This document shows, piece by piece, positions 37,348 to 59,537 of a DNA stretch of 64,000 nt. Source of the DNA: Cytobacillus firmus (GTDB lineage Bacteria > Bacillota > Bacilli > Bacillales > Cytobacillaceae); contig NZ_CP098323.1 of NCBI RefSeq assembly GCF_023657595.1, positions 2,070,001 through 2,134,000 of the forward strand, in the 5' to 3' direction. The notes below the pieces were generated by a model. The model did no database searches. It was not told where the DNA came from and saw only the letters and a program-made list of their open reading frames with translations. The number at the start of each line of letters is the position of its first letter. Position 1 is the first letter of the stretch. The position numbers were made by a program, and so were the translations under genes.

Positions 37348-37368
37348 GTTTTCTAAAGGGTGATGTAA

Positions 37369-37929: not shown

Positions 37930-38238
37930 ATGGTAAAATTAATCGCTCTTTATAAGCATCCTGAAAATAAGGAGGCATTTGATGATCATTATTTTAACAC
38001 GCACGCGCCCCTTACAGCCAAAATTCCGGGTCTCCGAAAAATGGAAGTTACAAAAATTGTGGGCAGCCCTATGGGAGGCGAAGGGAAGTACTATTTGATG
38101 TGCGAAATGTACTATGACAGCCATGAAGCATTGCAGGAAGCCATGAGAACAGACGAAGGCAAGGCATCAGGCAAAGACGCCATGAAATTTGCAGGTGATA
38201 TTATCACACTTATGATCGGTGAGGAAGCAGATGAGTAA
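37930..38238 (+). CDS. EthD-family small protein
   Basis: 102 residues, a dimeric alpha-beta barrel type: MVKLIALYKHPENKEAFDDHYFNTHAPLTAKIPGLRKMEV with the family's Y...HxPL pattern. EthD-type proteins act in oxygenase systems or as lyase/isomerases of aromatic intermediates. Lying inside the paa operon between paaD and paaF, it probably serves this pathway. It overlaps paaF by eight bases. Confidence 0.85.
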   Translation: MVKLIALYKHPENKEAFDDHYFNTHAPLTAKIPGLRKMEVTKIVGSPMGGEGKYYLMCEMYYDSHEALQEAMRTDEGKASGKDAMKFAGDIITLMIGEEADE

Positions 38239-39010: not shown

Positions 39011-39028
39011 AGGAGGTGTACATAGCGA

Positions 39029-39802: not shown

Positions 39803-39834
39803 CCTTTATAAAACTATAAAACTTAGAATTACTT

Positions 39835-39853
39835 TTAGAATATTTGCCCGTTA
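39835..39853. promoter_or_regulatory. Candidate aromatic-regulon operator (paaH)
   Basis: TTAGA-ATATTTGCC-CGTTA: right half-site perfect, left weak; shares ATATTT and CGTTATA with the paaK copy. Confidence 0.35.
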
Positions 39854-39866
39854 TATGGTTTGCGAG

Positions 39867-39897
39867 CATCTCGTATCGGGTGCTCGTCTTTTTTTAA
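39867..39897 (+). terminator. Terminator within the paa cluster, between paaG and paaH
   Basis: CGAGCATC-TCGTATCG-GGTGCTCG then TCTTTTTTT. It splits paaK-G from paaH-J, or attenuates the latter. Confidence 0.8.
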
Positions 39898-39917
39898 ACT
39901 GAAAGGAGGAGTATACC

Positions 39918-42154: not shown

Positions 42155-43030
42155 TTGAATACGAGATCAATGATTTTCACACTTTATGGTGATTATATTT
42201 CACATTATGGAAGCAAAATTTGGATCGGCAGTCTTATAAAGCTTTTAAGTGAATTTGGGCACAATGACCAGTCCGTCAGAGCGGCTATTTCAAGGATGAA
42301 TAAGCAGGGTTGGGTAAGTGCAGAAAAGATCGGCAATAAAAGCTATTATTCCTTAACGCCAAGAGGCCAGAAAAGGATTGAGGAAGCGGCTAAGCGTATT
42401 TTTAAATTAAAGCCTGAGGAGTGGGATGGCGAGTGGCGCATCCTTATGTATACCATCCCGGAGGAAATACGCAATGTGAGGGATGAATTGCGCAAGGAGC
42501 TTGTATGGAGCGGTTTTGGATCCATGTCCAGCAGCTGCTGGATCTCTGCTAATAATCTTGAGAAACAAGTATTTGATTTGATTGAGAAATATGATATTGC
42601 CAACTATGTTGATTTCTTTATTGCCCGTTATGCAGGACCGCATAAAAATATCGAAATTGTAGAAAAGAGCTGGAACCTGACAGAAATCAACGAAAGATAC
42701 CAGGAGTTTATTTCTCAATACAGCCAGAAATATATCATTGATAAAAATAAGATTCTGAAGGGAAATATGACTGATGCAGAATGTTTCGTAGAAAGAACGA
42801 AGCTTGTGCATGAATACCGGAAGTTCCTATTTGTGGACCCTGGTCTGCCTGAAGAGCTTCTGCCTGATAAGTGGCTGGGCAGTCATGCTGCTGCCTTATT
42901 CAGTGAATATTATAAAGAACTGGCAGAACCCGCATCCAGATTCTTTGAAAGTGTTTTTAAAGAAGGAAATGAACTGAAAAACAGAGATGCTGATTATGAC
43001 GCATTAAATCACCCCTATATGGTAGAGTGA
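42155..43030 (+). CDS. paaX: PaaX-family transcriptional repressor
   Basis: 291 residues. N-terminal winged helix (SMIFTLYGDYISHYGSKIWIGSLIKLLSEFGHNDQSVRAAISRMNKQGWV) and the PaaX effector/C-terminal parts (EWDGEWRILMYTIPEEIRNVRDELRKEL...FGSMSSSCWISA; LPDKWLGSHAAALFSEYYKELAEPA). PaaX proteins repress phenylacetate genes and release DNA on binding phenylacetyl-CoA. TTG start; AAGG four bases upstream is close. It has its own terminator and is transcribed separately from the paa genes it follows. Confidence 0.93.
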   Translation: MNTRSMIFTLYGDYISHYGSKIWIGSLIKLLSEFGHNDQSVRAAISRMNKQGWVSAEKIGNKSYYSLTPRGQKRIEEAAKRIFKLKPEEWDGEWRILMYTIPEEIRNVRDELRKELVWSGFGSMSSSCWISANNLEKQVFDLIEKYDIANYVDFFIARYAGPHKNIEIVEKSWNLTEINERYQEFISQYSQKYIIDKNKILKGNMTDAECFVERTKLVHEYRKFLFVDPGLPEELLPDKWLGSHAAALFSEYYKELAEPASRFFESVFKEGNELKNRDADYDALNHPYMVE

Positions 43031-45954: not shown

Positions 45955-45984
45955 TTGACACTCTCGGGTTCCGGGTGATAATAT
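45955..45984 (+). promoter_or_regulatory. Promoter of the TrpXYZ-type importer
   Basis: TTGACA (45955-45960) with GATAAT (45977-45982, 16-base spacer) or TAATAT (45979-45984, 18). Confidence 0.6.
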
Positions 45985-46002
45985 AACGTTGTATTTACGA
46001 TA
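45984..46002. promoter_or_regulatory. Candidate aromatic-regulon operator (importer)
   Basis: TAACG-TTGTATTTA-CGATA, directly after the -10, where a repressor would block initiation. Confidence 0.48.
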
Positions 46003-46126: not shown

Positions 46127-47140
46127 ATGAAAAAATCGTTGAAAGCTTTTTCTTTATTAATGGCTGCAGGCATGCTTGTTTTGAGCGGCTGCGGACAGGA
46201 GAAATCCAGTGGTTCTTCTTCAGAAGGTAATGAAAAGAAGCAGCAGTACACAATTGGCATTACACAATTTGTCGAGCATCCTTCCCTGGATGCAGCGACA
46301 GAGGGATTTAAAAAAGCTTTGGAAGATGAGGGATTTAAAGAAGGCGATAATGTAAAATTTGATTTCCAAAATGCTCAGGCGGATATGAACAATACCCAGA
46401 CGATCGCTAATAATTTTGTCGGTGATAAAGTAGATATGATTTTTGCAAATGCTACTCCAAGTGCTGTTAGTGCTCTTAATGCGACTAAAGATATTCCAAT
46501 TCTCTTTACATCTGTTACAGATCCTGTTGGAGCCGGTCTTGTTGAATCATTTGATCAGCCTGGAGACAATATTACAGGCACAACAGATAACCACCCGGAA
46601 GGAACGGCAAAAACGATTGATTTTATGATTGATGAAGCGGGTGTTAAAAATATTGGCATCATCTACAATTCCGGAGAGCAAAATTCCGAGGTTCAGGTTA
46701 AACAGGTGAAAGATCTTGCAGAACCAAAAGGAGCCAAGATTGTTGAAGCCTCTGTTTCAACCTCTGCAGAAGTAAAACAGGCTGCCGACTCCCTTGTTGG
46801 AAGGGTGGATGCCATCTATATCCCTACGGATAATACAGTTGTGTCTGCTTTGGAATCGGTTATCTCTGTCGCTGACAGCAAAAAAATTCCTTTATTCGTC
46901 GGTGAGCTTGATTCCATGAAACGCGGAGCTATAGCAGCCAGCGGATTCAACTACTTTGATCTTGGTTACCAGACAGGCAAAATGGCAGCTGAGATCTTAA
47001 AAGGAAACAAAAAGCCTTCTGAAATTCCGGTTGAGCTTCCTGGAAGCCTGAAACTGGTCATCAATAAAAAAGCAGCTGAAGCACAGGGACTGGAAGTAAA
47101 AGAGGAATGGGCTGATTTCGCAGAGTTCCATGAAGAGTAG
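46127..47140 (+). CDS. ABC importer lipoprotein, TrpX type
   Basis: 337 residues. Lipoprotein signal MKKSLKAFSLLMAAGMLVLSGCGQ, mature Cys near 22. The two-lobed periplasmic-binding fold of the ABC_sub_bind (TrpX-like) family: YTIGITQFVEHPSLDAATEGFKKAL, MIFANATPSAVSALNAT, DIPILFTSVTDPVGAGLV, NIGIIYNSGEQNSEVQVK, LFVGELDSMKRGAIAASG. In streptococci TrpX binds tryptophan. Given its neighbours, phenylalanine, tyrosine or their keto acids are plausible ligands here; that is inference. AGGGGGTC precedes ATG. Confidence 0.88.
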   Translation: MKKSLKAFSLLMAAGMLVLSGCGQEKSSGSSSEGNEKKQQYTIGITQFVEHPSLDAATEGFKKALEDEGFKEGDNVKFDFQNAQADMNNTQTIANNFVGDKVDMIFANATPSAVSALNATKDIPILFTSVTDPVGAGLVESFDQPGDNITGTTDNHPEGTAKTIDFMIDEAGVKNIGIIYNSGEQNSEVQVKQVKDLAEPKGAKIVEASVSTSAEVKQAADSLVGRVDAIYIPTDNTVVSALESVISVADSKKIPLFVGELDSMKRGAIAASGFNYFDLGYQTGKMAAEILKGNKKPSEIPVELPGSLKLVINKKAAEAQGLEVKEEWADFAEFHEE

Positions 47141-47148
47141 GAAAATCC

Positions 47149-47186
47149 GCCGGCTGGAAATGCAAATATCCGGCCGGCTGCTTTTT
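47149..47186 (+). terminator. Intercistronic hairpin, importer operon
   Basis: GCCGGCTGG and CCGGCCGGC arms (one T-G pair), then TGCTTTTT. Likely partial terminator or mRNA-protecting stem that lets more binding protein than permease be made. Confidence 0.6.
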
Positions 47187-47218
47187 AAGCTAAAACAAAA
47201 TAAAGGGTGTGATTCTTA

Positions 47219-48250
47219 GTGTTTACAGCGATATTCGGTGCATTCGAGTCAGGGGTTATCTACGCAATTATGGCACTTGGAGTATATCTTTCGTTCAGGG
47301 TCCTGGACTTTCCGGATTTAACGGTCGATGGAAGCTTTGTGACTGGAGCAGCTGTAGCTGCAACCATGATTGTCAGCGGGGCTAATCCTTTTCTTGCTAC
47401 GGTCACTGCATTATTTGCTGGTTTTATTGCCGGCTGCCTAACGGGTATTATTCATACTTTTGGAAAAATTAATGCTCTGTTATCTGGAATCCTGATGATG
47501 ATTGCCCTGTATTCGATAAACCTTCGTATCATGGGTAAATCAAATGTTCCTCTCCTGAACACAGAAACAGCCATTACACATGTAAGAGATTTTTGGGATA
47601 AAACAGGAATCGATTCTTTTTTCAATTCTATTTTGTCCATGGTAGGGCTGGGCGACAGCCTCCCGAGAACATGGGGCATTATTCTCTTTATGCTGGTTGT
47701 CACATTGGCTATAAAATTTTTGACAGATCGCTTTCTTCAGACTGAGATTGGTTTAGCTTTAAGGGCTACTGGTGACAACAAGAGGATGATCCGCAGTCTT
47801 TCTGCCAATACCAACATGATGGTGATTTTGGGGCTTGGCCTTTCCAATGCAATGGTCGCTTTCTCAGGAGCACTGATTGCCCAGCAGGGCGGATTCGCCG
47901 ATGTTGGTATGGGTATCGGAATGATTATTATCGGACTGGCTTCAGTTATTATCGGTGAAGCCTTGTTTGGAACAAAAACAATTGCCAGAACGACTTTAGC
48001 GGTCATTGGCGGAGCAATTATCTATCGTATCGTGGTTACTATGGCGCTAAGGGTAGAGTTCCTTGAGCCGGGTGATATGAAGCTGATTACAGCAACTATC
48101 GTCATCCTTGCATTAATAATGCCGAAGATTATTGACCGCACGAAGGAGAAGAAACGGAAAGCTAAAAGACTGGCAGGAAGCATGAACATAAGTGAATTGC
48201 CATCAGGCAGAAAGGGTGAGACTGGTGCTGCAATTAAATCAGATTCATAA
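47219..48250 (+). CDS. ABC importer permease, TrpY type
   Basis: 343 residues, about eight to nine membrane segments, with FESGVIYAIMALGVYLSFRVLDFPDLTVDGSFVTGAA at the start and the coupling-loop region FLQTEIGLALRATGDNKRMIRSLSANTNMMVILGLGLSNAMVAFSGAL, typical of TrpY/LivH-like permeases. GTG start after AAAGGGTGTG. Overlaps the ATPase gene by 26 bases. Confidence 0.88.
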   Translation: MFTAIFGAFESGVIYAIMALGVYLSFRVLDFPDLTVDGSFVTGAAVAATMIVSGANPFLATVTALFAGFIAGCLTGIIHTFGKINALLSGILMMIALYSINLRIMGKSNVPLLNTETAITHVRDFWDKTGIDSFFNSILSMVGLGDSLPRTWGIILFMLVVTLAIKFLTDRFLQTEIGLALRATGDNKRMIRSLSANTNMMVILGLGLSNAMVAFSGALIAQQGGFADVGMGIGMIIIGLASVIIGEALFGTKTIARTTLAVIGGAIIYRIVVTMALRVEFLEPGDMKLITATIVILALIMPKIIDRTKEKKRKAKRLAGSMNISELPSGRKGETGAAIKSDS

Positions 48251-49019
48251 AGTCTTCAATGAAGGGACACCAGATGAAAAGATTGCACTTGATACGATCA
48301 ATCTAACATTGAATGAGGGAGACTTTGTCACAGTCATCGGAAGTAATGGGGCAGGGAAATCCACTTTAATGAATATTATTTCGGGCGTCATGATACCTGA
48401 TGTGGGGTCTGTGTTTATCGACAGTCAAAATGTCACAGGCATGTCGGAATATAACCGGGCAAAGCTTATAGGCAGGGTTTTTCAGGATCCGATGGCTGGC
48501 ACTGCCCCGTCCATGACAATTGAAGAAAATCTGGCCATGGCGTTTTCAAGGAATAAAACAAGAACATTACGAAAAGGTGTGACGAAAAAGCGCAGGGATT
48601 ATTTCCGTGAAGTTCTTGAAAGCCTTCATCTTGGCCTTGAAGACCGTTTAAATGCTAAGGTCGGTTTATTATCAGGAGGAGAACGGCAGGCACTTTCATT
48701 ATTAATGGCAACCTTCACAGAGCCTTCCATTCTTTTGCTGGATGAACATACAGCTGCCCTCGACCCGGCACGTGCAGAGCTTATTACAAATCTCACAAAA
48801 GAAATTGTTCAAAAGTATAATTTAACAACCTTAATGGTCACACATAATATGCAGCAGGCGCTGGATTTAGGAAACAGACTGATTATGATGGATAAAGGCC
48901 AGATTATACTTGAAGTAGATGATGGACAGAAACAGCATTTGACAATTGAACAGCTGTTGAATGAATTTCAGCGAATCCGCGGAACAAAAATGGCAAGTGA
49001 TCGTGCACTGCTTTCTTAA
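48225..49019 (+). CDS. ABC importer ATPase, TrpZ type
   Basis: 264 residues from GTG 48225 (AAAGGGTGA upstream; GTG 48216 possible). Walker A IGSNGAGKSTL, Q-loop FQDPMAGTAPSMTIEENL, signature LLSGGERQALSLLM, Walker B SILLLDEHTAALDP (Glu followed by His as in the family), switch MVTHN. Powers the importer encoded just upstream. A terminator follows. Confidence 0.9.
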   Translation: MLQLNQIHKVFNEGTPDEKIALDTINLTLNEGDFVTVIGSNGAGKSTLMNIISGVMIPDVGSVFIDSQNVTGMSEYNRAKLIGRVFQDPMAGTAPSMTIEENLAMAFSRNKTRTLRKGVTKKRRDYFREVLESLHLGLEDRLNAKVGLLSGGERQALSLLMATFTEPSILLLDEHTAALDPARAELITNLTKEIVQKYNLTTLMVTHNMQQALDLGNRLIMMDKGQIILEVDDGQKQHLTIEQLLNEFQRIRGTKMASDRALLS

Positions 49020-49025
49020 AATAAT

Positions 49026-49061
49026 AAAAAGGATTAGCCAATTTGCCGGTTAATCCTTTTT
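49026..49061 (+). terminator. Terminator of the importer operon
   Basis: AAAAAGGATTA and TAATCCTTTTT arms with a GC-containing loop. Confidence 0.85.
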
Positions 49062-49104
49062 ACATGGATCAAATCAAAAGAATTTTTAAAGTTTTTACAA
49101 TTTA

Positions 49105-49134
49105 TTGACTATTCATTTAACGTAATGGTATCAT
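49105..49134 (+). promoter_or_regulatory. Promoter of the thioesterase/PheDH unit
   Basis: TTGACT (49105-49110), 18-base spacer, TATCAT (49129-49134). Confidence 0.55.
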
Positions 49135-49152
49135 ATCGTTAAATAAACGTCA
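49134..49152. promoter_or_regulatory. Candidate aromatic-regulon operator (thioesterase/PheDH)
   Basis: TATCG-TTAAATAAA-CGTCA begins where the -10 ends; a second TAACG half-site is inside the promoter spacer at 49118-49122. Confidence 0.42.
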
Positions 49153-49184
49153 TACATATTTATAATCAAAAAGGGAGGGGTGTT

Positions 49185-49574
49185 ATGAAACCTGGGCTGC
49201 AAATTGGGAACCAGGCAGTTATCCGTGCAGTGGTCTCACCTGAAATGTTCGCACAATTTGAAGGAGAGGTCATTCATCCTGTCTATTCCACTGTAACCAT
49301 GATCTATCACATGGAGTGGGCCTCCCGACTCCTGATCACCCCCTATTTGGATGAGGAAGAAGAAGGGATGGGTGGAGCTGTTTCTGCCAGGCATTTATCT
49401 CCGTCACCTGAAGGATCCTCCATTGTTATAACAGCTACCGTATCCAAGCTGGAAGGAAATTCAGTTTACTCAACTGTATCCGTCCATAATGGAGAAAACC
49501 TTGCTGGCGAAGGTGAAGTCAAACAGGTGATTCTGAAGAAAAGCAGGATTGCACAGTTGTTAAAGAAAGATTAA
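49185..49574 (+). CDS. FlK-type hotdog thioesterase
   Basis: 129 residues. The pattern VYSTVTMIYHMEWASRLLITPYLDEEEEGMGGAVSARHLSPSPEGSSIVITATVSKLEG follows fluoroacetyl-CoA thioesterase FlK: small residue/Thr before the hydrophobic helix, Glu in MEWA, then a His in ARHLSPSP. FlK-type proteins hydrolyse small or activated acyl-CoAs. Here it leads the PheDH unit and may stand in for PaaI, which frees CoA from dead-end ring-hydroxylated CoA esters. AGGGAGGGG precedes ATG. Confidence 0.78.
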   Translation: MKPGLQIGNQAVIRAVVSPEMFAQFEGEVIHPVYSTVTMIYHMEWASRLLITPYLDEEEEGMGGAVSARHLSPSPEGSSIVITATVSKLEGNSVYSTVSVHNGENLAGEGEVKQVILKKSRIAQLLKKD

Positions 49575-49624
49575 AAGAATAGCAGTATCAGAGTTACAAA
49601 AAAGGGATTTTAATTAAATTATAT

Positions 49625-49638
49625 TGTAAGCGCTACCA
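49625..49638 (+). promoter_or_regulatory. CcpA-type cre site before phenylalanine dehydrogenase
   Basis: TGTAAGCGCTACCA matches TGNAARCGNWWNCA throughout, 21 bases before the start codon; predicts glucose repression of phenylalanine breakdown. Confidence 0.68.
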
Positions 49639-49658
49639 TATATAAAGGGGAGAACGAA

Positions 49659-50768
49659 ATGACAGATATGTTTCAAAAAATTAAAGACCATGAACAGGTC
49701 GTATTCTGCAACGATGAATCTACCGGACTAAAGGCAATCATTGCTATCCACAGCACAAGGCTGGGGCCGGCATTGGGAGGCTGCCGCATGTTTCCGTATA
49801 AAAGCGTTGATGATGCCCTTGAGGATGTCCTCCGATTATCAAAAGGCATGACCTATAAATGTGCGGCTAGTGATTGTGACTTCGGAGGCGGGAAGGCTGT
49901 CATTATCGGGGATCCATTAAAAGATAAAACACCTGAGCTGTTCCGTGCTTTTGGCCAATTTGTTGAATCATTGAACGGACGCTTCTATACAGGAACAGAC
50001 ATGGGTACTTCTACAGAGGATTTCGTTCATGCACTAAAGGAAACGAATTGCATTGTGGGGGTTGATGAGGTTTATGGGGGAAGCGGCGATTCTTCTGTAC
50101 CAACAGCGCAGGGTGTTATTTACGGCCTCCAGGCAACAAATAAAGCACTGAGCGGAACAGACGACCTTTCAGGCAAGAGTTATGCCATTCAGGGACTTGG
50201 CAAAGTGGGGTATAAAGTCGCAGAAAGGCTGCTGGAGGAAGGGGCAGATTTATTTGTGACAGATATCAGCCAGCAGGCAATCGACCAGCTCCTCAGCAAG
50301 GCGAAAGAAATTGGTGCCGGTGTGAAGGTTTTATCCAGCAATGAGATATATGAGGCCGAGGCAGACTTTTTTGTTCCTTGTGCAATGGGAGGCATCATTA
50401 ATGATGACACAATCGACTTGCTTAAAGTAAAAGCAATTGTAGGCTCTGCCAATAACCAGCTAATGGATATACGCCATGGCCAAATCCTAAAAGATAAGGG
50501 AATTTTATACGCACCTGATTATATTGTAAATGCAGGGGGATTAATCCAGGTCGCAGATGAATTATATACACCTAATAAAGAAAGGGTACTCCGCAAAACG
50601 AAAGCTATTTATAACTCTCTTCTGAACATCTACGAACATGCTGAAGCAAATGGAATTACAACAGTTGAAGCATCCAACCAATTCTGCGAGAGCCGCATTG
50701 AAGCACGCACACGCAGAAACAGCTTTTTCTCCCATATGAAACGCCCGAAGTGGGCAGTAAGAACCTAA
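49659..50768 (+). CDS. pdh: Phenylalanine dehydrogenase
   Basis: 369 residues. Glu/Leu/Phe/Val dehydrogenase superfamily: [12 protein letters not shown], catalytic-Lys regions [27 protein letters not shown], Rossmann [39 protein letters not shown] and GSANNQL. The details [43 protein letters not shown] and the end [13 protein letters not shown] are those of Bacillus phenylalanine dehydrogenase, not leucine dehydrogenase (which has GLNLGGGKTVI and SSGNPSPVTAYGV). It deaminates Phe to phenylpyruvate with NAD. AAAGGGG precedes ATG. Confidence 0.9.
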
Positions 50769-50782
50769 TTTTTTTGCTTGGA

Positions 50783-50801
50783 TAACAATATTTGTACCGT
50801 A
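50783..50801. promoter_or_regulatory. Weak candidate aromatic-regulon operator (dehydrogenase complex)
   Basis: TAACA-ATATTTGTA-CCGTA agrees with the paaK copy at 14 of 19 positions but is not symmetric. Confidence 0.28.
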
Positions 50802-50842
50802 TAAAAGTTATTAAAATAATTTACCAGCCAAAGGGTGAGAAG

Positions 50843-51910
50843 ATGGAAAATCACTTTCCGATCAGGCGAATAATGAACGAAAATGGAACGATCATCAATT
50901 CTGATTATAAAGAAAAAGTAACTGAAAAGATCGTAAAAGAGTTTTATAGACATATGGTAAGAATCCGTACTTTTGACCGCAAAGCTATTTCACTTCAGCG
51001 GCAGGGCAGGATAGGCACATATGCTCCTTATGAAGGTCAGGAGGCTTCCCAGGTCGGAACTGCTGTTGCGCTGGGGGAGAGCGATTGGATGTTTCCTACC
51101 TATCGCGACCACGGAGCAGCTATGACCTTTGGCCACTCACTGCGAAACATCCTGTTGTTTTGGAACGGAAGAAATGAAGGGTGTGTGCCGCCTGACGGAA
51201 AGAAGATCTTCCCTCCAGGCATTCCGATTGCGACACAAATCCCTCATGCAGCAGGAGCTGCATTCGCAGAAAGGAAAAAAGGCACTGCCAATGCTGCTAT
51301 TGCTTATTTTGGTGATGGTGCAACCTCAGAGGGAGATTTCCATGAAGGCTTAAATTTTGCCAGCGTATTTAAAGCTCCGGTTGTCTTTTTTAATCAGAAC
51401 AATCAATACGCCATTTCTGTACCGCTTGAGAAGCAGATGAATACAAAAACGATTGCCCAGAAAGCCCTGGCATATGATATTCCAGGAGTCAGGATTGATG
51501 GGAATGATGTTTTCATGGTTTATTTTGAAACACTAAAAGCCTTAGAGCGGGCCCGTAAAGGTGAAGGGCCGACACTCATTGAAGCCATGACATGGAGATA
51601 TGGTGCACACACTACTGCAGATGACCCATCCAAATACCGCGATCAATCGGAAAGCAATAGCAGAAGACAGGAGACTGACCCTATTTTAAGGCTGGAACGC
51701 TGGATGAAAAATGAAGGAATATTTGATGAGATTTGGCAAAAGGCAATAGAAGAGGAAGCAGCAGCTGAAATAGACAAAGCTGTAGATGAAATGGAGGATT
51801 TTCCTCCTGTAGATCCTGCTGTTATTTTTGACTATGTCTTTGCTGAGCCTACTTGGCAAATCAAGCAGCAAAAAGAAGAGTATCTGAAGCTGATTGGAGG
51901 CGGCCGTTAA
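50843..51910 (+). CDS. 2-oxoacid dehydrogenase complex E1 alpha
   Basis: 355 residues from ATG 50843 (AAAGGGTGAG upstream). Thiamine-diphosphate motif GDGATSEGDFHEGLNFASVFKAPVVFFNQNN (GDG...NN) and YEGQEASQVGTAVAL, MFPTYRDHGAAMTFG; phosphate/phosphorylation-loop region YGAHTTADDPSKYR. Belongs to the PDH/BKDH E1 alpha type. Placed 75 bases after PheDH, it probably takes phenylpyruvate as its 2-oxoacid. The stop overlaps the E1 beta start (TAATG). Confidence 0.92.
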   Translation: MENHFPIRRIMNENGTIINSDYKEKVTEKIVKEFYRHMVRIRTFDRKAISLQRQGRIGTYAPYEGQEASQVGTAVALGESDWMFPTYRDHGAAMTFGHSLRNILLFWNGRNEGCVPPDGKKIFPPGIPIATQIPHAAGAAFAERKKGTANAAIAYFGDGATSEGDFHEGLNFASVFKAPVVFFNQNNQYAISVPLEKQMNTKTIAQKALAYDIPGVRIDGNDVFMVYFETLKALERARKGEGPTLIEAMTWRYGAHTTADDPSKYRDQSESNSRRQETDPILRLERWMKNEGIFDEIWQKAIEEEAAAEIDKAVDEMEDFPPVDPAVIFDYVFAEPTWQIKQQKEEYLKLIGGGR

Positions 51911-52905
51911 TGAAAACAGCAGTTGGAGCAAAAACCATGACATTAGTGCAAGCCATTACGGATGCTTTAGATACTATGCTGAATGAAAAGGAAGAGGTTT
52001 TGCTGCTGGGCGAGGATATCGGCAGGAACGGCGGAGTTTTCCGTGCAACCGATGGTCTCCAGGCTAAGTACGGCGAAGGCCGTGTTATCGATACGCCTTT
52101 AAGTGAAGCCGGTTTTGTCGGAGCGGGGATTGGAATGGCTGTGAATGGATTTTTACCGGTGATCGAAATTCAGTTTCTTGGCTTTATCTATCCTGCATAT
52201 GAACAGATCATGACCCATGCTTCAAGGCTCCGGATGCGGACAATGGGACATTTTACTGTTCCGATGGTAATAAGGGCTCCATATGGAGCGGGGGTTAGGG
52301 CTCCGGAAATTCACTGTGATTCAACAGAAGCTATTTTCACTCACATGCCCGGCATCAAGGTCGTCTGCCCATCCAGCCCTTATGACGCCAAAGGACTGCT
52401 GATTGCTGCGATTGAAGACCCGGATCCAGTTCTGTTTCTTGAGCCGATGCGCTGCTATCGTTCGGCCAGAGAGGAAGTGCCTGAAGGGAAGTATACAGTT
52501 GAAATAGGAAAAGGCAAAAAACTCATGGATGGGGACGATGTAACGGTCATCACGTGGGGAGCCATGGTGCCAGAGGCTATGAAAGCGGCAAAGCAGATGA
52601 AAGAAAATAACGTACATTGTGATGTAATTGATTTAAGAACCCTATTTCCACTGGATAAAGACATGATTGCAGAATCTGTCCAAAAGACAGGGAGAACAGT
52701 TATTGTCCATGAAGCTCATGCCACCGGCGGAGTCGGAAATGATGTGCTTGCCATCATTAATGATACATCCTTTTTATATCAGAAAGCACCTGTTGAACGG
52801 GTTACTGGATTTGATGCGCCAGTTCCATACTTTGGTTTTGAGGACCATTACCTGCCAACTCCGGCAAGGATTCAGCAGGCAATAGAAAAAGTAATGAAGT
52901 TTTAG
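51910..52905 (+). CDS. 2-oxoacid dehydrogenase complex E1 beta
   Basis: 331 residues from ATG 51910, sharing a base with the E1 alpha stop. Transketolase-like: LLGEDIGRNGGVFRATDGLQAKYG, DTPLSEAGFVGAGIGMAVNG, EIQFLGFIYPAYEQIMTHASRLRMRT, and C-terminal VIVHEAHATGGVGNDV. Completes the heterotetrameric E1 with the alpha subunit. Confidence 0.93.
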   Translation: MKTAVGAKTMTLVQAITDALDTMLNEKEEVLLLGEDIGRNGGVFRATDGLQAKYGEGRVIDTPLSEAGFVGAGIGMAVNGFLPVIEIQFLGFIYPAYEQIMTHASRLRMRTMGHFTVPMVIRAPYGAGVRAPEIHCDSTEAIFTHMPGIKVVCPSSPYDAKGLLIAAIEDPDPVLFLEPMRCYRSAREEVPEGKYTVEIGKGKKLMDGDDVTVITWGAMVPEAMKAAKQMKENNVHCDVIDLRTLFPLDKDMIAESVQKTGRTVIVHEAHATGGVGNDVLAIINDTSFLYQKAPVERVTGFDAPVPYFGFEDHYLPTPARIQQAIEKVMKF

Positions 52906-52916
52906 GAGGGGAAGCC

Positions 52917-54140
52917 GTGGAGGTGAAACTGCACGATATTGGTGAAGGAATGACGGAAGCAGATATTAATTGCTTTTTAGTTAAGCCGGGGGATGCAGTC
53001 AAAGCAGACGATCCGCTTGTTGAAGTACAGACTGATAAAATGACTGCTGAAATACCTGCCCCGAAAGCAGGCATTATTAAGGAATTTACAGTGCAGCCTG
53101 GCGATACGGTTAAAGTGGGTTCGACCATTTTAATTTTAGAATCTGCTGGTGAGGAAGGCGCTGAAAAAGAGAATGCTGTTTCTATTCCTGTTTACACACA
53201 TTCGCCGCAGAAGCAAAACCATTCTTTTGTGGCATTCAAAGGAAATCGGGTTCTTGCTTCTCCTTTCACAAGAAAAATAGCGCGCGATAATGACATTGAT
53301 ATTGAGAAAATCATAGGAACAGGTCCTGCTGGCCGTATTTTAGATGAAGACATCTATCAATACATAGCTTCTCTTCAGACGAAGCCGGCCCATGATGAAC
53401 AGGAACAAGCAACTTTGAATGAAAACATAAAAAGTCCCCCTGCTGAGAAAGAGATCATTCCGTTCAGGGGCAGACGGAAGCAGATTGCCAGGAAAATGGC
53501 ACAATCACTCTTTACCATTCCCCATTGTACCCATTTTGAAGAAATCGATGTAACCGAGCTGATTGCTTTCAGAAAAGAGCTTAAGCTTCTAAACCTAAAT
53601 ATATCTGCTACAGCCTTTTTCCTGAAGGCTTTATCAATTTGCCTGAAGGAATTTCCTGTGTTTAATGCAGTGCTGCATGAAGAAAAGGAAGAAATACATT
53701 TGGCAGGTGAACATCATATCGGTATTGCGGTTGATACGGACGAAGGTCTAATCGTTCCGGTCATAAAGCATGTCGAAAATAAAACAATTAGAGAAATTCA
53801 TGCAGAAATGAAAAATCTGACGGAAAAAGCAGTGGAGAATAAGCTTACTGTTAAAGAAATTTCTGAGGGGACTTTTACAATCAGCAATGTGGGGCCTCTT
53901 GGCGGAAGCTTTGGAGCAACTCCGATTATCCAGCATCCGCAAACCGCTTTGGTATCTTTCCATAAAACAAAAAAGATGCCTGTTGTGACCGATGATGACC
54001 AGATTGTCATTCGGTCAATGATGAATATATCAATGTCTTTTGATCATAGAGTTGCAGACGGGGCGACAGCTGTACGCTTTACAAACCGCTTTGCTGAATT
54101 GATTAAAAATCCGAAAATGCTTGTTCTGGAGATGGTATAA
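52917..54140 (+). CDS. 2-oxoacid dehydrogenase complex E2 (dihydrolipoyl acyltransferase)
   Basis: 407 residues. One lipoyl domain with the lipoylated Lys in VQTDKMTAEI (about residue 42), a peripheral-subunit-binding domain (ASPFTRKIARDNDIDIEKIIGTGPAGRILDEDI, about 118-150) and a catalytic domain ending in SFDHRVADGATAV, the HxxxDG motif. GTG start after AGGAGGGG. Transfers the acyl group, here probably phenylacetyl, to CoA. Adjacent to E3 with no gap. Confidence 0.93.
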   Translation: MEVKLHDIGEGMTEADINCFLVKPGDAVKADDPLVEVQTDKMTAEIPAPKAGIIKEFTVQPGDTVKVGSTILILESAGEEGAEKENAVSIPVYTHSPQKQNHSFVAFKGNRVLASPFTRKIARDNDIDIEKIIGTGPAGRILDEDIYQYIASLQTKPAHDEQEQATLNENIKSPPAEKEIIPFRGRRKQIARKMAQSLFTIPHCTHFEEIDVTELIAFRKELKLLNLNISATAFFLKALSICLKEFPVFNAVLHEEKEEIHLAGEHHIGIAVDTDEGLIVPVIKHVENKTIREIHAEMKNLTEKAVENKLTVKEISEGTFTISNVGPLGGSFGATPIIQHPQTALVSFHKTKKMPVVTDDDQIVIRSMMNISMSFDHRVADGATAVRFTNRFAELIKNPKMLVLEMV

Positions 54141-55583
54141 ATGGTAGTTGGAGAACTGGCACATGAGCGTGATGTCATCGTAATCGGCGGCGGCCCCGGG
54201 GGCTATCATGCCGCAATCCGCGCTGCACAGCTGGGGCGAAATGTTACATTAGTTGAACAGGATCAGCTTGGCGGGATCTGTTTAAATAAAGGGTGCATAC
54301 CTTCCAAGATTCTCACACAGTCTGCTGAAAAATTCACTTCATTCCAGGAAGGGGAAAATTGGGGGCTTGAAGGAGGAAATATTTCATTAAACTTAAACAA
54401 GCTCCAGGAATACAAGCAGAAGAAAATTAAGCAGCTCCGGGCAGGAATTGAAGCCCTCTGTCAAGCTAATAAAATAGAAGTTCTTAATGGTTCAGCCTTT
54501 TTTCTGTCAGAGGATAAGATTGGGATCGAAAAAGGAGACCAATTTGACGTTTTCCGATTTCAAAATGCCATCATTGCGACCGGCGGCAGACCGGAAAAAC
54601 CTCTTTGGTTCAGAGAAATAAGTGAATTAGTATTCGATCAGCATTCCATTTCAAATTTGAGTGAAATACCCGATAAACTATTAATCTATGGCAATGATTA
54701 CATTGCCCTCGAAATAGGTATGGCCTATCAGGCACTGGGATCTAAAGTGACTCTGATCCTCGAAGATGGAAAAGAGGATTTTGATTTTGATCAGTCCATT
54801 TGCCGGGAACTGAAGAGGATATTAAAAAAGAAAAAAATAGATATTGTAAGAAATTCGGATGTATTGGGACTTGAGCATAATGAAGGAATGTTAACAGTAA
54901 CTTTTGAGAGTAAAGGAAAAAGAGAAACCATTTCAGGCACACATCTATTTGTTTCATCTTCCATTCGGCCAAACACTGACCAGCTGGGACTCTCCCGTAT
55001 AGGGGTGGAGCAATGTGAAGCAGGGTTTATTAAGGTTGACCGTCAAAGCCGGACAACACAGAAACATATTTTCGCAGTCGGTGATGTAACAGAAGGTCCT
55101 GCACTTGCGGTAAAAGCTATTAAACAAGGAAAAACAGCCGCTGAAGCAATTGCGGGAATTAAATCGGAATCAGATTTTCACTTCATTCCGATTGCTGCAC
55201 ATACACAGCCTCCTATTGCGTGTGCGGGGTTAACGGAACAGGAAGCCATTAACATGGGCTATGACATTGAAATTGGTGTATCCTCATTATCTGCCAACGG
55301 ATTCAGCACATTGAGCGGGAAAAAAGATGGATTTATAAAAGTGATCAGCTGCAGGAAAAAACAAGTTCTTCTGGGGATCCACATGGTAGGCTCCGGAGCA
55401 ATAGAATTAATTTCAGCTGGAATTACTGCATTGGAAATGGGAGCAAGGGATGAAGATTTAATTTTCCCTAACTACCCGCATCCAAGTATAAATGAAGGCT
55501 TGCTGGAAGCTGTAGAAGCTTTAAAGAATTTGGCTGTTCACATACCGCCCCTAAGCAAAAAAACGCAAAAAATAAAAGTATAA
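54141..55583 (+). CDS. lpdA: 2-oxoacid dehydrogenase complex E3 (dihydrolipoamide dehydrogenase)
   Basis: 480 residues. FAD motif VIVIGGGPGGYHAAIRAAQLG, redox disulfide GGICLNKGCIPSK, NAD domain, FAVGDVTEGPALAVKAIKQG, and the interface His-Glu near NYPHPSINEGLLEA. Immediately follows E2, so the complex has its own dedicated E3. Several positions are less canonical than housekeeping Lpd (for example KLLIYGNDYIALEIG for the usual GxGxxG), worth noting but not disabling on sequence alone. Confidence 0.9.
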   Translation: MVVGELAHERDVIVIGGGPGGYHAAIRAAQLGRNVTLVEQDQLGGICLNKGCIPSKILTQSAEKFTSFQEGENWGLEGGNISLNLNKLQEYKQKKIKQLRAGIEALCQANKIEVLNGSAFFLSEDKIGIEKGDQFDVFRFQNAIIATGGRPEKPLWFREISELVFDQHSISNLSEIPDKLLIYGNDYIALEIGMAYQALGSKVTLILEDGKEDFDFDQSICRELKRILKKKKIDIVRNSDVLGLEHNEGMLTVTFESKGKRETISGTHLFVSSSIRPNTDQLGLSRIGVEQCEAGFIKVDRQSRTTQKHIFAVGDVTEGPALAVKAIKQGKTAAEAIAGIKSESDFHFIPIAAHTQPPIACAGLTEQEAINMGYDIEIGVSSLSANGFSTLSGKKDGFIKVISCRKKQVLLGIHMVGSGAIELISAGITALEMGARDEDLIFPNYPHPSINEGLLEAVEALKNLAVHIPPLSKKTQKIKV

Positions 55584-55696: not shown

Positions 55697-56812
55697 ATGC
55701 AAAATGAAAAATTGTTGAAGGAACAGAAGGTAGCCGATTTCTTTCCTGTGAAGGAGGTAGATTATTTAGAAATCTATACAGGAAATGCAAAACAATCCTG
55801 CCATTATTTCTGCACAGCTTTCGGTTTTAAGCCAGTTGCTTATTCCGGTCTGGAAACCGGCAATAGAGAAACAGTCTCTTATGTCCTTCAGCAGAGAAAG
55901 ATTCGCCTGGTGATCACAGGAACATTAAATGACAGTTCCAGAGTTTCAAATTTCATTCATAAGCATGGAGATGGTGTAAAAGATATAGCATTAACTGTTG
56001 ATGATGTTGAAAAGGCATACAAAGCAGCGGTTGAAAGAGGTGCAATCGAAATACAGCCTCCAGCTGAGATAAAAGACGAATACGGCACGGTCAAAAAGGC
56101 AGTTATTGGTACATATGGAGATACCATTCATACACTTGTTGAACGGAATGATTATAAAGGGGTATTCATGCCTGGCTTTGAGCCTTATCAAACTGAAGTT
56201 CCATTTGAGGATGCAGGTTTTATCGGCGTCGACCATGTTGTTGGAAATGTAGAGAGAATGGAGGAATGGGTGAATTATTATGCAAATGTAATGGGCTTTA
56301 AGGAAATGAAGCACTTTACAGATAAAGACATTACAACAGAATATTCCGCTCTGATGTCCAAGGTTATGCATAATGGAGGCAGAATTAAGTTCCCAATTAA
56401 CGAGCCTGCAGAAGGGAAGCGCAAATCCCAGATTGAAGAATACCTTGAATACTACAACGGGGCTGGAGTACAGCATCTGGCCATTCTGACAGAAGATATT
56501 GTCAGCACTGTCAGCATCCTTCGCAAAAATGGGGTAGAGTTCTTAAGCACTCCAGATTCTTATTATGAAATGCTTTCTGAGCGCGTAGGGAAAATTGATG
56601 AAGAGATCGACAAATTGAAGGAATTAAATATTCTCGTTGACCGCGATGACGAAGGCTATCTGCTTCAAATTTTCACAAAACCAATCGTAGACCGTCCGAC
56701 CTTATTCATTGAAATCATTCAGCGTAAAGGTGCCAGAGGGTTTGGTGAAGGCAACTTTAAAGCACTCTTTGAATCTATTGAACGTGAGCAGGAAAGACGG
56801 GGGAATTTATAA
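55697..56812 (+). CDS. hppD: 4-hydroxyphenylpyruvate dioxygenase
   Basis: 371 residues. Two vicinal-oxygen-chelate halves. Iron ligands fit GVDHVVGNV (His), GVQHLAILTEDI (His) and FIEIIQRKGARGFGEGNFKALFESIEREQ (Glu), the last being the diagnostic C-terminal helix. It converts 4-hydroxyphenylpyruvate to homogentisate in tyrosine breakdown. Good ribosome site (GGAGGGG). A strong terminator directly follows, before the aminotransferase gene. Confidence 0.96.
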   Translation: MQNEKLLKEQKVADFFPVKEVDYLEIYTGNAKQSCHYFCTAFGFKPVAYSGLETGNRETVSYVLQQRKIRLVITGTLNDSSRVSNFIHKHGDGVKDIALTVDDVEKAYKAAVERGAIEIQPPAEIKDEYGTVKKAVIGTYGDTIHTLVERNDYKGVFMPGFEPYQTEVPFEDAGFIGVDHVVGNVERMEEWVNYYANVMGFKEMKHFTDKDITTEYSALMSKVMHNGGRIKFPINEPAEGKRKSQIEEYLEYYNGAGVQHLAILTEDIVSTVSILRKNGVEFLSTPDSYYEMLSERVGKIDEEIDKLKELNILVDRDDEGYLLQIFTKPIVDRPTLFIEIIQRKGARGFGEGNFKALFESIEREQERRGNL

Positions 56813-56823
56813 CTTTTCAGCTT

Positions 56824-56853
56824 AAAAGGGAGAAAGCATTTCTCCCTTTTTTA
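56824..56853 (+). terminator. Terminator between hppD and the aminotransferase gene
   Basis: AAAAGGGAGAAA-GCA-TTTCTCCCTTTT then TTAATAA; 12-bp perfect stem. Confidence 0.87.
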
Positions 56854-56879
56854 ATAAATTTTAGAAGGAGGCAGACCAG

Positions 56880-57974
56880 ATGGCTAGAATCCAGACAAAA
56901 AGCGCTGTGGAAAAGATTGTTTCTTATCCGCTTGGCAGCTCGCCGGAAGAGATCAAAGAAAAGTACAATTTAATGGCTGTCCGGAAAATGTCTGATAATG
57001 AAAATGTGTATGGCTGTTCACCCGAAGTCAGGAACAGCATCAGCAAAGCGATGAACAGTCTTTACTTTTACCCGGATGGCACTGTTTCCCTCCTCAAACG
57101 CAAGCTGGCCGGATTCTATAATATAAGTGAAGATAACTTTCTGGTCAGCAATGGTTCAGAAGAGATCATCCGATTATTGACTAGAGCATACATAAGTGCT
57201 GGAGATGAAGCTGTCATGGCTCAGAATACATTTCCACGATATGAAACAAACGTCCTTATTGAAGGAGGCAGTGCGATAACAGTACCGCTGCAAAATGGAA
57301 CACATAACTTAAGAGCCATGTATGAGAAGATGAATGAAAAAACAAAGATGGTGTTTATCTGCAATCCCAACAATCCTACAGGAACCATAGTCGGAAAAAC
57401 AGAACTGCTGCAATTCATTGATAAAGTTCCTTCAAACATCCTGATTATTCTTGATGAAGCATACTATGAATATGTGAATTCCGAGGATTATCCTGACTCT
57501 ATTCCGCTTCTTGCACAGAGGCCTAACTTAATCATCCTAAGGACTTTCTCCAAAATCTATGGTCTTGCAGGACTCCGTGTCGGCTATGGAATCATGCATC
57601 GGGAGATCGTGAATGACCTTCATAAGGTAAAAGATGTATTTAATGTCAACCACCTGGCACAGGCAGCGGCTTCTGCAGCACTAAATGATCAGGACTTTAT
57701 AAAGGATTGTGCACAAAAAAATGCCGAAGAGATGAAATTTGTGTGCCAAAAACTAACTGAATTACATGTCGGCTATTTTCCTTCCCAAACTAATTTTATG
57801 TATATTTTCAGCCAGCTTCCTATTGCAGACAACTTGATTGCAAATGGCTTGGTTGTCCGGAAAATGAAGCTTGACGGCTATCTTGATGCTTTTCGGATGA
57901 CGTTAGGAACAAGGGAAGATAATGAAGCGGCATTGGCTGTGATAAACAAACTTCTGAATGAAAAGGCGGTGTAG
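56880..57974 (+). CDS. HisC-like class II aminotransferase (likely aromatic)
   Basis: 364 residues. PLP enzyme of the histidinol-phosphate aminotransferase type: NENVYGCSPEV, YPDGTVSLLKRKLA, NPNNPTGTIV, ILDEAYYEYV and the Schiff-base Lys in RTFSKIYGLAGLRVGYG. HisC relatives often act on aromatic amino acids; lying between hppD and hmgA, this one most likely makes 4-hydroxyphenylpyruvate from tyrosine. AGAAGGAGG precedes ATG. First gene of a four-gene unit ending in hmgA. Confidence 0.87.
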   Translation: MARIQTKSAVEKIVSYPLGSSPEEIKEKYNLMAVRKMSDNENVYGCSPEVRNSISKAMNSLYFYPDGTVSLLKRKLAGFYNISEDNFLVSNGSEEIIRLLTRAYISAGDEAVMAQNTFPRYETNVLIEGGSAITVPLQNGTHNLRAMYEKMNEKTKMVFICNPNNPTGTIVGKTELLQFIDKVPSNILIILDEAYYEYVNSEDYPDSIPLLAQRPNLIILRTFSKIYGLAGLRVGYGIMHREIVNDLHKVKDVFNVNHLAQAAASAALNDQDFIKDCAQKNAEEMKFVCQKLTELHVGYFPSQTNFMYIFSQLPIADNLIANGLVVRKMKLDGYLDAFRMTLGTREDNEAALAVINKLLNEKAV

Positions 57975-57979
57975 GGCAT

Positions 57980-58600
57980 ATGGAATTAAATCCACAGAGT
58001 CTCGAGTGGAAAGACGCATATAAGCTGATGGTTGGCTCAATTCTGCCGCGTCCCATTGCGTTTGTTACCACTATGGACACAGATGGAAATGTTAATGCAG
58101 CTCCATTCAGCTTTTTTACAGCCATATGTGCAGATCCGATGCTGATTTGCTTTTCACCTATGCGAAAAGGGACAGATGGCTCTAAGAAAGATACGCTTGC
58201 TAATATTGAAGCCACTAAGGAATTCGTTATTAACATCGTCAGTGAAGACTTTACTGAAAAGATGAATATTTGTGCAGCGGATTATCCGGCTGGTATAGAC
58301 GAACTGGACGCAGCGGGTCTCGAAAAAGAAAAAAGTGCCTCTGTTAAGCCTCCTAGGGTTAAAGAATCAAAAGTCCACTTAGAATGCAGTCTCTATCAGG
58401 TACTTCACTTTGGAGAACAACCCGGTTCAGGAAGTCTGGTAATTGGAAAAGTGGAGCATGTGCATGTTGCTGAAGAGCTTTACGAAAATGGAAGGATTAA
58501 TTCCGAAAAGCTGAAGCCTGTTGGCCGGATGGCAGGACATATCTATACGAGGCCAATGACTGATGTATTTGAATTGATCCGAAAAACGGACCCAAGGTGA
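57980..58600 (+). CDS. Flavin reductase-like (DIM6/NTAB) protein
   Basis: 206 residues, split-barrel FMN-binding fold: MVGSILPRPIAFVTTMDTDGNVNAAPFSFFTAICADPMLICFSP and TKEFVINIVSEDFTEKMN, with IGKVEHVHVAEEL near the end. Such proteins supply reduced FMN or act as flavoredoxins. No oxygenase needing reduced flavin is adjacent, so its role in the homogentisate operon is unclear. Five bases after the aminotransferase gene, five before the FAH gene. Confidence 0.85.
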   Translation: MELNPQSLEWKDAYKLMVGSILPRPIAFVTTMDTDGNVNAAPFSFFTAICADPMLICFSPMRKGTDGSKKDTLANIEATKEFVINIVSEDFTEKMNICAADYPAGIDELDAAGLEKEKSASVKPPRVKESKVHLECSLYQVLHFGEQPGSGSLVIGKVEHVHVAEELYENGRINSEKLKPVGRMAGHIYTRPMTDVFELIRKTDPR

Positions 58601-58604
58601 TGCT

Positions 58605-59528
58605 ATGAAATTCATAACCTTTCGAAAACCGGATGGATCTATAAGAGCGGGCTGGCTGAAGAATGAGGAGTATGCTGTTGATATGCATGAAGCGACCAAT
58701 GGTGTTCTGCCCAAAACAATGCTGGCATTCCTTGAGAATCATGAGTTTTTTATGGAGTACCTATCTTCCAGCAAAAAACTGAAGAACACGGATAAAGGGG
58801 TATATCCTTTATCCGAAGTGAACTTAATGGCTCCACTGCCAAATCCAAAAAGCTTTCGGGATTTCTATGCTTTTGAAGAACACGTGAAAACGGCAAGAGA
58901 TAACCGCGGACTTGATATGATACCCGAATGGTATGAAATACCCGTCTTTTATTTTTCAAATCATCTGAGCATTAAGGGTCCAAATGAAGAAATTTCGCGT
59001 CCCAAGCATTGTGAATGGCTTGATTACGAGCTCGAAATTGCCTGTATTATCGGCAAAGAAGGAAAGGATATTAAAGCTGCCGAAGCGGATGATTATATAT
59101 TTGGGTATTGCATCCTGAATGATTGGAGTGCAAGAGATATTCAGCGAAAAGAAATGAAGGTAGGTCTTGGCCCTGCCAAAGGGAAGGATTTTGCCACTTC
59201 TGTCGGGCCATATATCGTTACAAAGGATGAGCTTGAGAATTTCCGTGTTGAAAATGGCTATGATTTGCTGATGACAGCAAAAGTCAACGGAACTCTTCTT
59301 TCAGAAGGGAATATGCAGGATATCTACTATTCCTTTTACGAAATGCTTGAGCGGGCTTCAGATGGTGTAACACTCTGCCCAGGTGAAATGATAAGCTCCG
59401 GGACTGTTGGCAGCGGCTGCATCCTTGAGCTGGGCACCGATGTGCACCGCTGGCTTAAGCCTGGAGATGAGGTTGAGCTTGAAATTGGCAATCTCGGAAT
59501 ATTAAAAAATCGGATCGCAAATGAGTGA
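58605..59528 (+). CDS. Fumarylacetoacetate hydrolase-family protein
   Basis: 307 residues. FAH C-terminal catalytic domain motifs: DYELEIACIIGKEGKDI (metal-binding Glu residues), FGYCILNDWSARDIQ, and GTVGSGCILELG with KPGDEVELEIGNLGILKN. Operon context with hmgA points to cleavage of fumaryl- or maleylacetoacetate to fumarate/maleate and acetoacetate. Ribosome site GGTGATG overlaps the end of the flavin reductase gene. Confidence 0.88.
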   Translation: MKFITFRKPDGSIRAGWLKNEEYAVDMHEATNGVLPKTMLAFLENHEFFMEYLSSSKKLKNTDKGVYPLSEVNLMAPLPNPKSFRDFYAFEEHVKTARDNRGLDMIPEWYEIPVFYFSNHLSIKGPNEEISRPKHCEWLDYELEIACIIGKEGKDIKAAEADDYIFGYCILNDWSARDIQRKEMKVGLGPAKGKDFATSVGPYIVTKDELENFRVENGYDLLMTAKVNGTLLSEGNMQDIYYSFYEMLERASDGVTLCPGEMISSGTVGSGCILELGTDVHRWLKPGDEVELEIGNLGILKNRIANE

Positions 59529-59537
59529 GGTGGAAAT

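Follow-up and report, generated by a model that had tools for sequence, protein, structure and literature searches.

A direct conversion of phenylpyruvate to phenylacetyl-CoA has been suggested for PglB/PglC, a pyruvate dehydrogenase (PDH)-like complex of pristinamycin biosynthesis in Streptomyces pristinaespiralis, in the passages of PMC7089894 that deal with it, and the indolepyruvate/phenylpyruvate:ferredoxin oxidoreductase IorAB provides a known route from arylpyruvates to arylacetyl-CoA, according to the corresponding part of PMC5109826. Here we analyze a 64,000-nt stretch (the window) of the one-contig, 4.98-Mb genome of Cytobacillus firmus (assembly GCF_023657595.1, contig NZ_CP098323.1, positions 2,070,001 to 2,134,000). 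In this window, the genes for an ABC importer, an FlK-type thioesterase, phenylalanine dehydrogenase (PheDH), and the E1alpha, E1beta, E2, and E3 subunits of a 2-oxoacid dehydrogenase complex are consecutive, with phenylacetate (paa) pathway genes and paaX on one side and HPPD and homogentisate genes on the other. We consider it very likely, from gene content and genome comparison, that E1alpha-E1beta-E2-E3 constitute a dedicated catabolic phenylpyruvate (arylpyruvate) dehydrogenase complex that feeds the paa pathway. The conversion of phenylpyruvate to phenylacetyl-CoA by this complex, put forward in a preliminary description of the same DNA, is supported by co-occurrence with paaA and PheDH, by a palindrome common to the complex operon and paa genes, and by a linkage that is rearranged yet conserved, the substrate being deduced from genomes.

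The suggested conversion is the same for PglB/PglC and the window complex, which we liken by description, not by sequence; however, PglB/PglC serves antibiotic biosynthesis, with only two E1-type genes in the operon as far as it is described there, whereas the window complex would be catabolic and is encoded together with PheDH, E2, E3, and paa genes. IorAB catalyzes the net conversion proposed here for the window complex, but is ferredoxin dependent and differs in architecture. No description of a phenylpyruvate dehydrogenase complex that is both catabolic and NAD linked was found for Bacillaceae in the open-licence literature, a scope outside which most subscription journals fall. The earlier characterization of a little-described enzyme is limited by the precedent suggested for PglB/PglC. 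If the assignment is correct, the complex would, across a large group of widespread soil bacteria, connect phenylalanine with the phenylacetyl-CoA pathway by a CoA-linked step that costs no ATP, a recurrent misannotation as pyruvate dehydrogenase would be corrected, and PheDH, an enzyme of biocatalysis, would gain a clear physiological partner.

Gene order and predicted reaction

The gene content of the window confirms the row of importer, thioesterase, PheDH, and complete E1alpha-E1beta-E2-E3 set between the paa and homogentisate genes; all genes previously named are present with open frames and in the order given:

33857..35164, + strand, paaK, phenylacetate-CoA ligase (TIGR02155, 622.6 bits, cut-off 646.3)
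35190..37866, + strand, paaABCD, phenylacetyl-CoA epoxidase genes (TIGR02156/02157/02158/02159, each above cut-off)
38219..41977, + strand, PaaF/PaaG-type crotonases, 3-hydroxyacyl-CoA dehydrogenase, and PcaF/PaaJ-type thiolase (below the equivalog cut-offs for PaaF, PaaG, and PcaF)
42155..43030, + strand, paaX, phenylacetate pathway regulator (TIGR02277, 342.8 bits, cut-off 264.55)
46127..47140, + strand, ABC importer solute-binding protein (SBP), TrpX-like (299.9 bits, NCBIfam cut-off 390)
47219..48250, + strand, ABC importer permease (PF02653)
48192..49019, + strand, ABC importer ATPase
49185..49574, + strand, FlK-type hot-dog thioesterase (PF22636, 106.6 bits, cut-off 27; nearest solved relative 2cwz)
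49659..50768, + strand, phenylalanine dehydrogenase (by pocket residues)
50843..51910, + strand, E1alpha of the proposed phenylpyruvate (arylpyruvate) dehydrogenase (the frame may also begin at 50792)
51910..52905, + strand, E1beta (the ATG overlaps the E1alpha stop; the frame may also begin at 51853)
52917..54140, + strand, E2 with one lipoyl domain, subunit-binding domain, and acyltransferase domain with the DHR-DG motif (motifs read by eye)
54141..55583, + strand, E3, dihydrolipoyl dehydrogenase (TIGR01350, 411.6 bits, cut-off 408.8)
55697..60692, + strand, tyrosine/homogentisate branch: HPPD, HisC-like aminotransferase, flavin reductase, FAH-family, and HmgA-like genes
55697..56812, + strand, HPPD
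59538..60692, + strand, HmgA-like gene

The starts of E1alpha at 50843 (homologs are about 355 aa long) and of E1beta at 51910 are the likely ones, judged from relatives. The sequence TAATG joins the E1alpha stop and the E1beta ATG, and the E3 start codon directly abuts the E2 stop, so that translation is probably coupled at both junctions.

E1alpha and E1beta carry, in translations and alignments, the GDG...NN stretch, which we take to be the thiamine-diphosphate motif, and the YR, GAHT, and PEIH motifs, as expected for an alpha2beta2-type E1. In E2, the lysine that carries the lipoyl group, the subunit-binding domain, and the DHR-DG motif were read by eye, as was the redox disulfide of E3. 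The catalytic Tyr, alpha-His, and beta-His of PDH E1, as given in the pertinent part of PMC2663715, are conserved in the window E1.

In the predicted pathway, PheDH would oxidize L-phenylalanine to phenylpyruvate, yielding NADH; the thiamine-diphosphate E1 would decarboxylate phenylpyruvate and load the phenylacetyl group on the lipoyl arm of E2; E2 would transfer this group to CoA; and E3 would regenerate the lipoyl group with NAD, for a net yield of phenylacetyl-CoA, CO2, and NADH. Phenylacetyl-CoA would then pass to the adjacent paaABCD and onward, bypassing a decarboxylase, an aldehyde dehydrogenase, and the ATP-consuming PaaK (which, in this cluster, would serve free phenylacetate). The route through decarboxylase, aldehyde dehydrogenase, and PaaK spends ATP at PaaK, and the direct route saves that ATP. 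The FlK-type thioesterase probably hydrolyzes excess or off-path acyl-CoAs.

Overall score alone does not tell a PheDH from a leucine dehydrogenase (LeuDH) here, because the nearest PDB relatives of the amino acid dehydrogenase are solved LeuDHs. Residues of the substrate pocket of Bacillus badius PheDH, including F86, G123, V144, and L306, are given in the part of PMC8543943 that describes them, and we used these four listed positions, at which the window enzyme and LeuDH differ. All four residues of the window enzyme (F75, G112, V133, and L295) are those of PheDH, whereas the genome's own LeuDH, 78% identical to 1leh, has none of them (L, A, T, and V instead). Among 40 dehydrogenases of the loci for which the window PheDH was the best match in the reference set, the PheDH residue is found at the four positions in 38, 40, 36, and 39, respectively. 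By these residues, the enzyme is identified as a PheDH, not a LeuDH, in agreement with the preliminary description. That description had also called the importer TrpXYZ-type; an ABC importer with a TrpX-like SBP is indeed encoded, but with the SBP scoring below the TrpX cut-off, its ligand would not be fixed as tryptophan. The best solved relatives of the SBP are 6hni, 3lkv, and 3lft.

Co-occurrence and conserved linkage

Co-occurrence was analyzed in 151 genomes of the family with completeness of at least 95%, with thresholds of E <= 1e-120 for E1alpha and E <= 1e-140 for PheDH. E1alpha was detected in 69, paaA in 77, and PheDH in 71 of these genomes. All 69 genomes with E1alpha encode paaA, none of the 74 genomes lacking paaA encodes E1alpha, and window-type PheDH is present in 68 of the 69; the bkd E1alpha, used as a control, is found in 150 of the 151. 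The association between E1alpha and paaA has a Fisher p of 2e-34, a value that is overstated since the E1alpha genomes come mostly from few genera; counted by genus, 9 of 24 have E1alpha and 13 of 24 have paaA. The two genes are on one contig in 64 of the 69 genomes (at most 40 kb apart in 63, with a median of 15.7 kb) and on separate contigs in 5. Eight genomes with paaA lacked E1alpha at the threshold. In one of them (G067), the contig ends 588 bp from PheDH, and E1alpha may therefore be missing from the assembly. Another genome of the same genus (G131) encodes none of E1alpha, paaA, and PheDH at these thresholds.

Gene neighborhoods were surveyed on genome contigs for the best 80 E1alpha loci, and the counts given here and below apply to the loci listed. 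PheDH is encoded in 36 of the 51 close-group loci, in 35 of these within 2.5 kb of E1alpha by mid-points. Listed paa genes, that is, PaaK, A-D, X, or PcaF, are present in 39 of the 51, including one (L048) with a PcaF-type thiolase only. Among 14 more distant loci, paa genes were found in 5 (Brevibacillus, a Bacillus, Tumebacillus, Alicyclobacillus, and Paenibacillus) and PheDH in 4, including those of Thermoactinomyces and Kroppenstedtia, which have PaaF/G-type genes. Linkage to paa genes or PheDH persists in other gene orders and lineages (L049, L053, L058, L065, L067, L070, L071, L072, L074, and L077). The arrangement is not a chance one, because it recurs in many species. For each of the 21 loci with no listed paa gene, the whole genome was checked, and paaA was found elsewhere in 15 of these genomes.

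A palindrome shared with paa genes

The palindrome TAACG-N9-CGTTA was spotted in intergenic stretches of the window before paaK, the importer, and FlK:

33800..33818, no strand, candidate operator TAACGATATTTAAACGTTA upstream of paaK, an exact TAACG-N9-CGTTA match
45984..46002, no strand, candidate operator upstream of the importer, with 1 mismatch
49123..49152, no strand, two overlapping candidate operators before the FlK-PheDH-E1 operon (at 49123, with 1 mismatch, and at 49134, with 2 mismatches)

Between positions 30000 and 62000, no sites other than those at 33800, 45984, and 49123 match with one mismatch or none, and no candidate operator was found before HPPD in the window. Because the motif had been derived from the window, the latter and its close copy (L012) were left out of the test set, which comprised 70 other loci. 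At one mismatch or fewer, the box was found before FlK in 16 of 32 regions, paaA in 10 of 20, SBP in 7 of 27, paaX in 3 of 27, E1alpha in 2 of 24, paaK in 1 of 14, and PheDH in 0 of 18. In total, 39 of 162 target regions carry it vs 12 of 447 other regions (HPPD, 0 of 12), with a Fisher p of 8e-15 for loci that are mutually related, L055 and L091 being partly near-copies. With up to two mismatches, the counts rise to 25 of 32 for FlK, 15 of 20 for paaA, and 13 of 27 for SBP, with 33 of 312 for unclassified genes and 1 of 12 for HPPD. One locus (L017) has a single 1-mismatch site 111 bp before HPPD, outside the trimmed test regions.

Positions 6, 7, and 14, which were unused in the search, are also conserved, extending the arms to TAACGTT-N5-AACGTTA. 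The N9 spacing yields 60 matches in 50 loci, compared with 19-44 when the arms are set at any other distance from N4 to N15; the 44 matches at N14 are probably due to sites that overlap at FlK promoters. Among the 20 stretches upstream of paa genes are those of four genomes, L115-L118, which have paaA without E1alpha and carry the box at one or two mismatches, so that the box looks like a general paa operator whose regulon the complex joined. With the palindrome located before both paa genes and the complex operon, the importer and the FlK-PheDH-complex operon would probably belong to the paa regulon.

In other bacteria, PaaX and PaaR respond to phenylacetyl-CoA, and their sites, TGATTC-N27-GAATCA for Escherichia coli PaaX and CNAACGNNCGTTNG for Thermus PaaR, are given in the sections of PMC9493321 concerned with these regulators. 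By inspection, the candidate box differs from both. Because paaX lies next door and PaaX/PaaR answer to phenylacetyl-CoA elsewhere, PaaX is the likely binder of the box, from which it would be released by phenylacetyl-CoA, the product of the complex itself. The analysis predicts a directly testable paa operator in Bacillaceae. A scan of positions 28000-64000 with Rfam, a library that presumably includes the T-box, gave no match at gathering thresholds, and the sigma-54 promoter motif [TC]GGCA[CT]-N4/5-TTGC[AT] has no match in the window.

The thioesterase gene, the first in the complex operon and present in 37 of the 51 close loci, raises the alternative that phenylacetyl-CoA is made mainly to be released by FlK as phenylacetate, for excretion or signaling, and not for ring degradation. 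The box common to the complex operon and paaA/paaK, and the presence of paaA in every E1alpha genome of the family, argue against this explanation, which we regard as highly improbable.

Alternative readings, other complexes, and neighboring genes

Several of the observations set out in this section weigh against a dedicated phenylpyruvate dehydrogenase complex. At up to one mismatch, the box is missing before FlK in 16 of 32 regions and before paaA in 10 of 20. E3 was not found in 16 of the 51 close loci, and 7 of the 14 more distant loci lack both PheDH and listed paa genes in their vicinity. Bacillus badius (L056:9938-12049) encodes E1alpha-E1beta of the same clade with no local E2/E3 or PheDH, and paaA elsewhere. 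Furthermore, 6 of the 21 checked genomes lack paaA despite the presence of the complex. Five of these loci are beside 4-hydroxyphenylacetate-type genes; the sixth (L064, Paenibacillus, E1alpha 53%) is not among the hpa-linked loci. As a side observation, L064 and another Paenibacillus locus, L062, combine a distant E1 of the window type with a very different E2.

Four of the five hpa-linked loci (L045, L047, L050, and L059) have an aminotransferase gene with E1alpha-E1beta-E2, CHMI, and two FAH-family genes; L045 also encodes HpaE, and L050 an aldehyde dehydrogenase. In the fifth (L052), E1alpha-E1beta-E2-E3 is followed by genes for a DapA-family protein, an aldehyde dehydrogenase, HpaB, and a glyoxalase/extradiol-family protein. 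An alpha/beta hydrolase is encoded downstream of E2 or E3 in L045, L046, L047, L050, and L059, following an NhaC-type antiporter gene in L045, L047, and L059, and would be consistent with hydrolysis of an aryl-acetyl-CoA to supply a free-acid pathway. Because five of the six paaA-less loci are beside 4-hydroxyphenylacetate genes, the group probably consists of arylpyruvate dehydrogenases. The loci also suggest a broader arylpyruvate dehydrogenase with a main substrate that varies by lineage: phenylpyruvate near paa genes and 4-hydroxyphenylpyruvate near hpa-type genes, where the product would be 4-hydroxyphenylacetyl-CoA, subsequently hydrolyzed; the window enzyme may then also accept 4-hydroxyphenylpyruvate or indolepyruvate. 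We deem this reading somewhat probable. Against it, L046 has the hydrolase with no hpa-type gene identified at the locus and paaA in the genome, and L051 has CHMI/FAH genes at the locus, yet paaA elsewhere. In the window, 4-hydroxyphenylpyruvate is taken by HPPD, before which the box is found in none of the 12 regions, and the operon includes PheDH, not an aminotransferase.

NhaC-type Na+/H+ antiporter genes lie beside or near the complex in L045, L047, and L059, and also in L050 and L057; these are perhaps the amino acid or aryl acid transporters of the respective loci.

Across these lineages, we lean slightly toward a widespread, unrecognized Bacillota family of NAD-linked arylpyruvate dehydrogenase complexes, often filed as PDH. 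Such a complex would be part of an interchangeable module in which PheDH or an aminotransferase supplies the complex, followed by either paa ring epoxidation, fed directly with the acyl-CoA, or, with a hydrolase, meta-cleavage of 4-hydroxyphenylacetate, fed with the free acid. The paa form would be controlled by its own product through the PaaX box.

The window E1alpha passes the pyruvate dehydrogenase equivalog model TIGR03181 with 476.4 bits (cut-off 411.35), and the genome's own PDH E1alpha scores 478.4, so that the model does not separate the two. PDH is the nearest of the genome's complexes in sequence, BKDH (the branched-chain 2-oxoacid dehydrogenase) being more distant: identity is 41% for E1alpha and 49% for E1beta to the pdh set (L008), 36% and 42% to the bkd operon (L007), and 34% and 39% to a further set (L009). 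The closest named relatives of E1alpha are from Cytobacillus, at 90% identity, and the NCBI-named relatives listed bear the name pyruvate dehydrogenase. The TIGR03181 score and the E1beta identity would fit a second pyruvate or branched-chain oxoacid dehydrogenase merely located in the cluster, an explanation we consider very unlikely on the grounds that follow. In a tree of 87 E1alphas, in which long branches (L009 and the bkd rows among them) are placed unsurely, the window protein belongs to a 52-row clade (support 100/97) apart from the PDH group with the Geobacillus stearothermophilus E1alpha. The genome has pdh and bkd operons of its own, E1alpha never occurs without paaA in the 151 genomes whereas bkd is nearly universal, and the complex operon carries the paa box.

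The G. stearothermophilus PDH complex has the same architecture and the closest solved E1 subunits, with the catalytic Tyr, alpha-His, and beta-His shared; unlike Bacillales PDH, the window complex falls in a separate clade, coexists with a pdh operon, and has a different genome context and a different candidate operator. The genome's bkd complex resembles it in architecture and in its pairing with an amino acid dehydrogenase of the same family, but has LeuDH, ptb, and buk where the window has PheDH and paa genes. Given the separate bkd operon and the identities above, the window genes are not bkdAA/bkdAB orthologs in a bkd context.

The genome contains six E1_dh matches. Besides the window E1, these include the bkd operon, for which a check had been proposed in the preliminary description and which is present as a separate operon that also holds the genes for phosphate butyryltransferase, LeuDH, and butyrate kinase; the pdh set, the E1alpha of which groups with the G. 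stearothermophilus chain; a further E1-E2-E3 set of unassigned type (L009) at about 4.627 Mb, next to genes for a chemotaxis receptor and an oxidoreductase of the DRL type (PF21135); and a SucA-length match adjoining SucB (L010). An aco label for the set at 4.627 Mb was not borne out, its E1alpha, E1beta, and E2 having no NCBIfam match at E <= 1e-130. The sixth match (L011:7924-8896, at about 2.866 Mb) is a half-length E1alpha open reading frame (ORF) of 206 aa that shares part of its length with another same-strand ORF; it looks like a broken or partial E1alpha paralog.

A pocket signature of E1alpha (Q52, T59, E64, H90, W107, and T258) was considered as proof of substrate and rejected as not diagnostic; it was not used. 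It first looked specific, in 50 clade and 12 divergent sequences, with T59 in place of a Phe seen in PDH and BKD E1alphas, which is presumably a side-chain pocket residue in Thermus E1 (F66alpha). In a control with archaeal and other E1s, T59, W107, and mostly H90 were also present, in haloarchaeal and Bipolaricaulota proteins (L075, L076, L080-L082, L084, L085, L087, and L090), and only E64 was confined to the Bacillota group (49 of 51 in the clade). The substrates of these haloarchaeal and Bipolaricaulota E1s could be aromatic too.

Other routes from phenylalanine are also encoded in the genome. With an aromatic amino acid hydroxylase (PRK14056), phenylalanine can also go via tyrosine to homogentisate, and PaaK represents another alternative. 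The four TPP_enzyme_N proteins are IlvB, sulfoacetaldehyde acetyltransferase (Xsc), MenD, and an unassigned protein (L096, PRK07064 type, at about 2.603 Mb) that could be an aryl 2-oxoacid decarboxylase. IorA has no match over the cut-off in the genome; a weaker match corresponds to two adjacent ORFs of 578 and 288 aa, which we take for KorAB. The negative IorA result and the three TPP assignments count in favor of the proposed complex; the fourth TPP protein and the other routes count against it.

Among the remaining genes of the window, neither paaE (reductase) nor paaZ (ring opening) was seen among the annotated ORFs of the paa cluster at 35190-41977. An EthD-family gene (37930-38238) follows paaD in the window and in several relatives. 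About 3 kb of other genes separate paaX from the importer, among them a FabK/nitronate monooxygenase-like gene (NMO, 44929-45879) that is present in 35 of the 51 close loci. The HmgA-like protein, with 64 bits against an NCBIfam cut-off of 511, is of a divergent homogentisate dioxygenase type. Upstream of paaK, a 1131-aa ORF (30264-33659) matches DUF2157 only weakly (27.8 bits, cut-off 32.4), and at 28142-29937, a class D sortase gene adjoins a gene for a "processed acidic surface protein" (TIGR04383).

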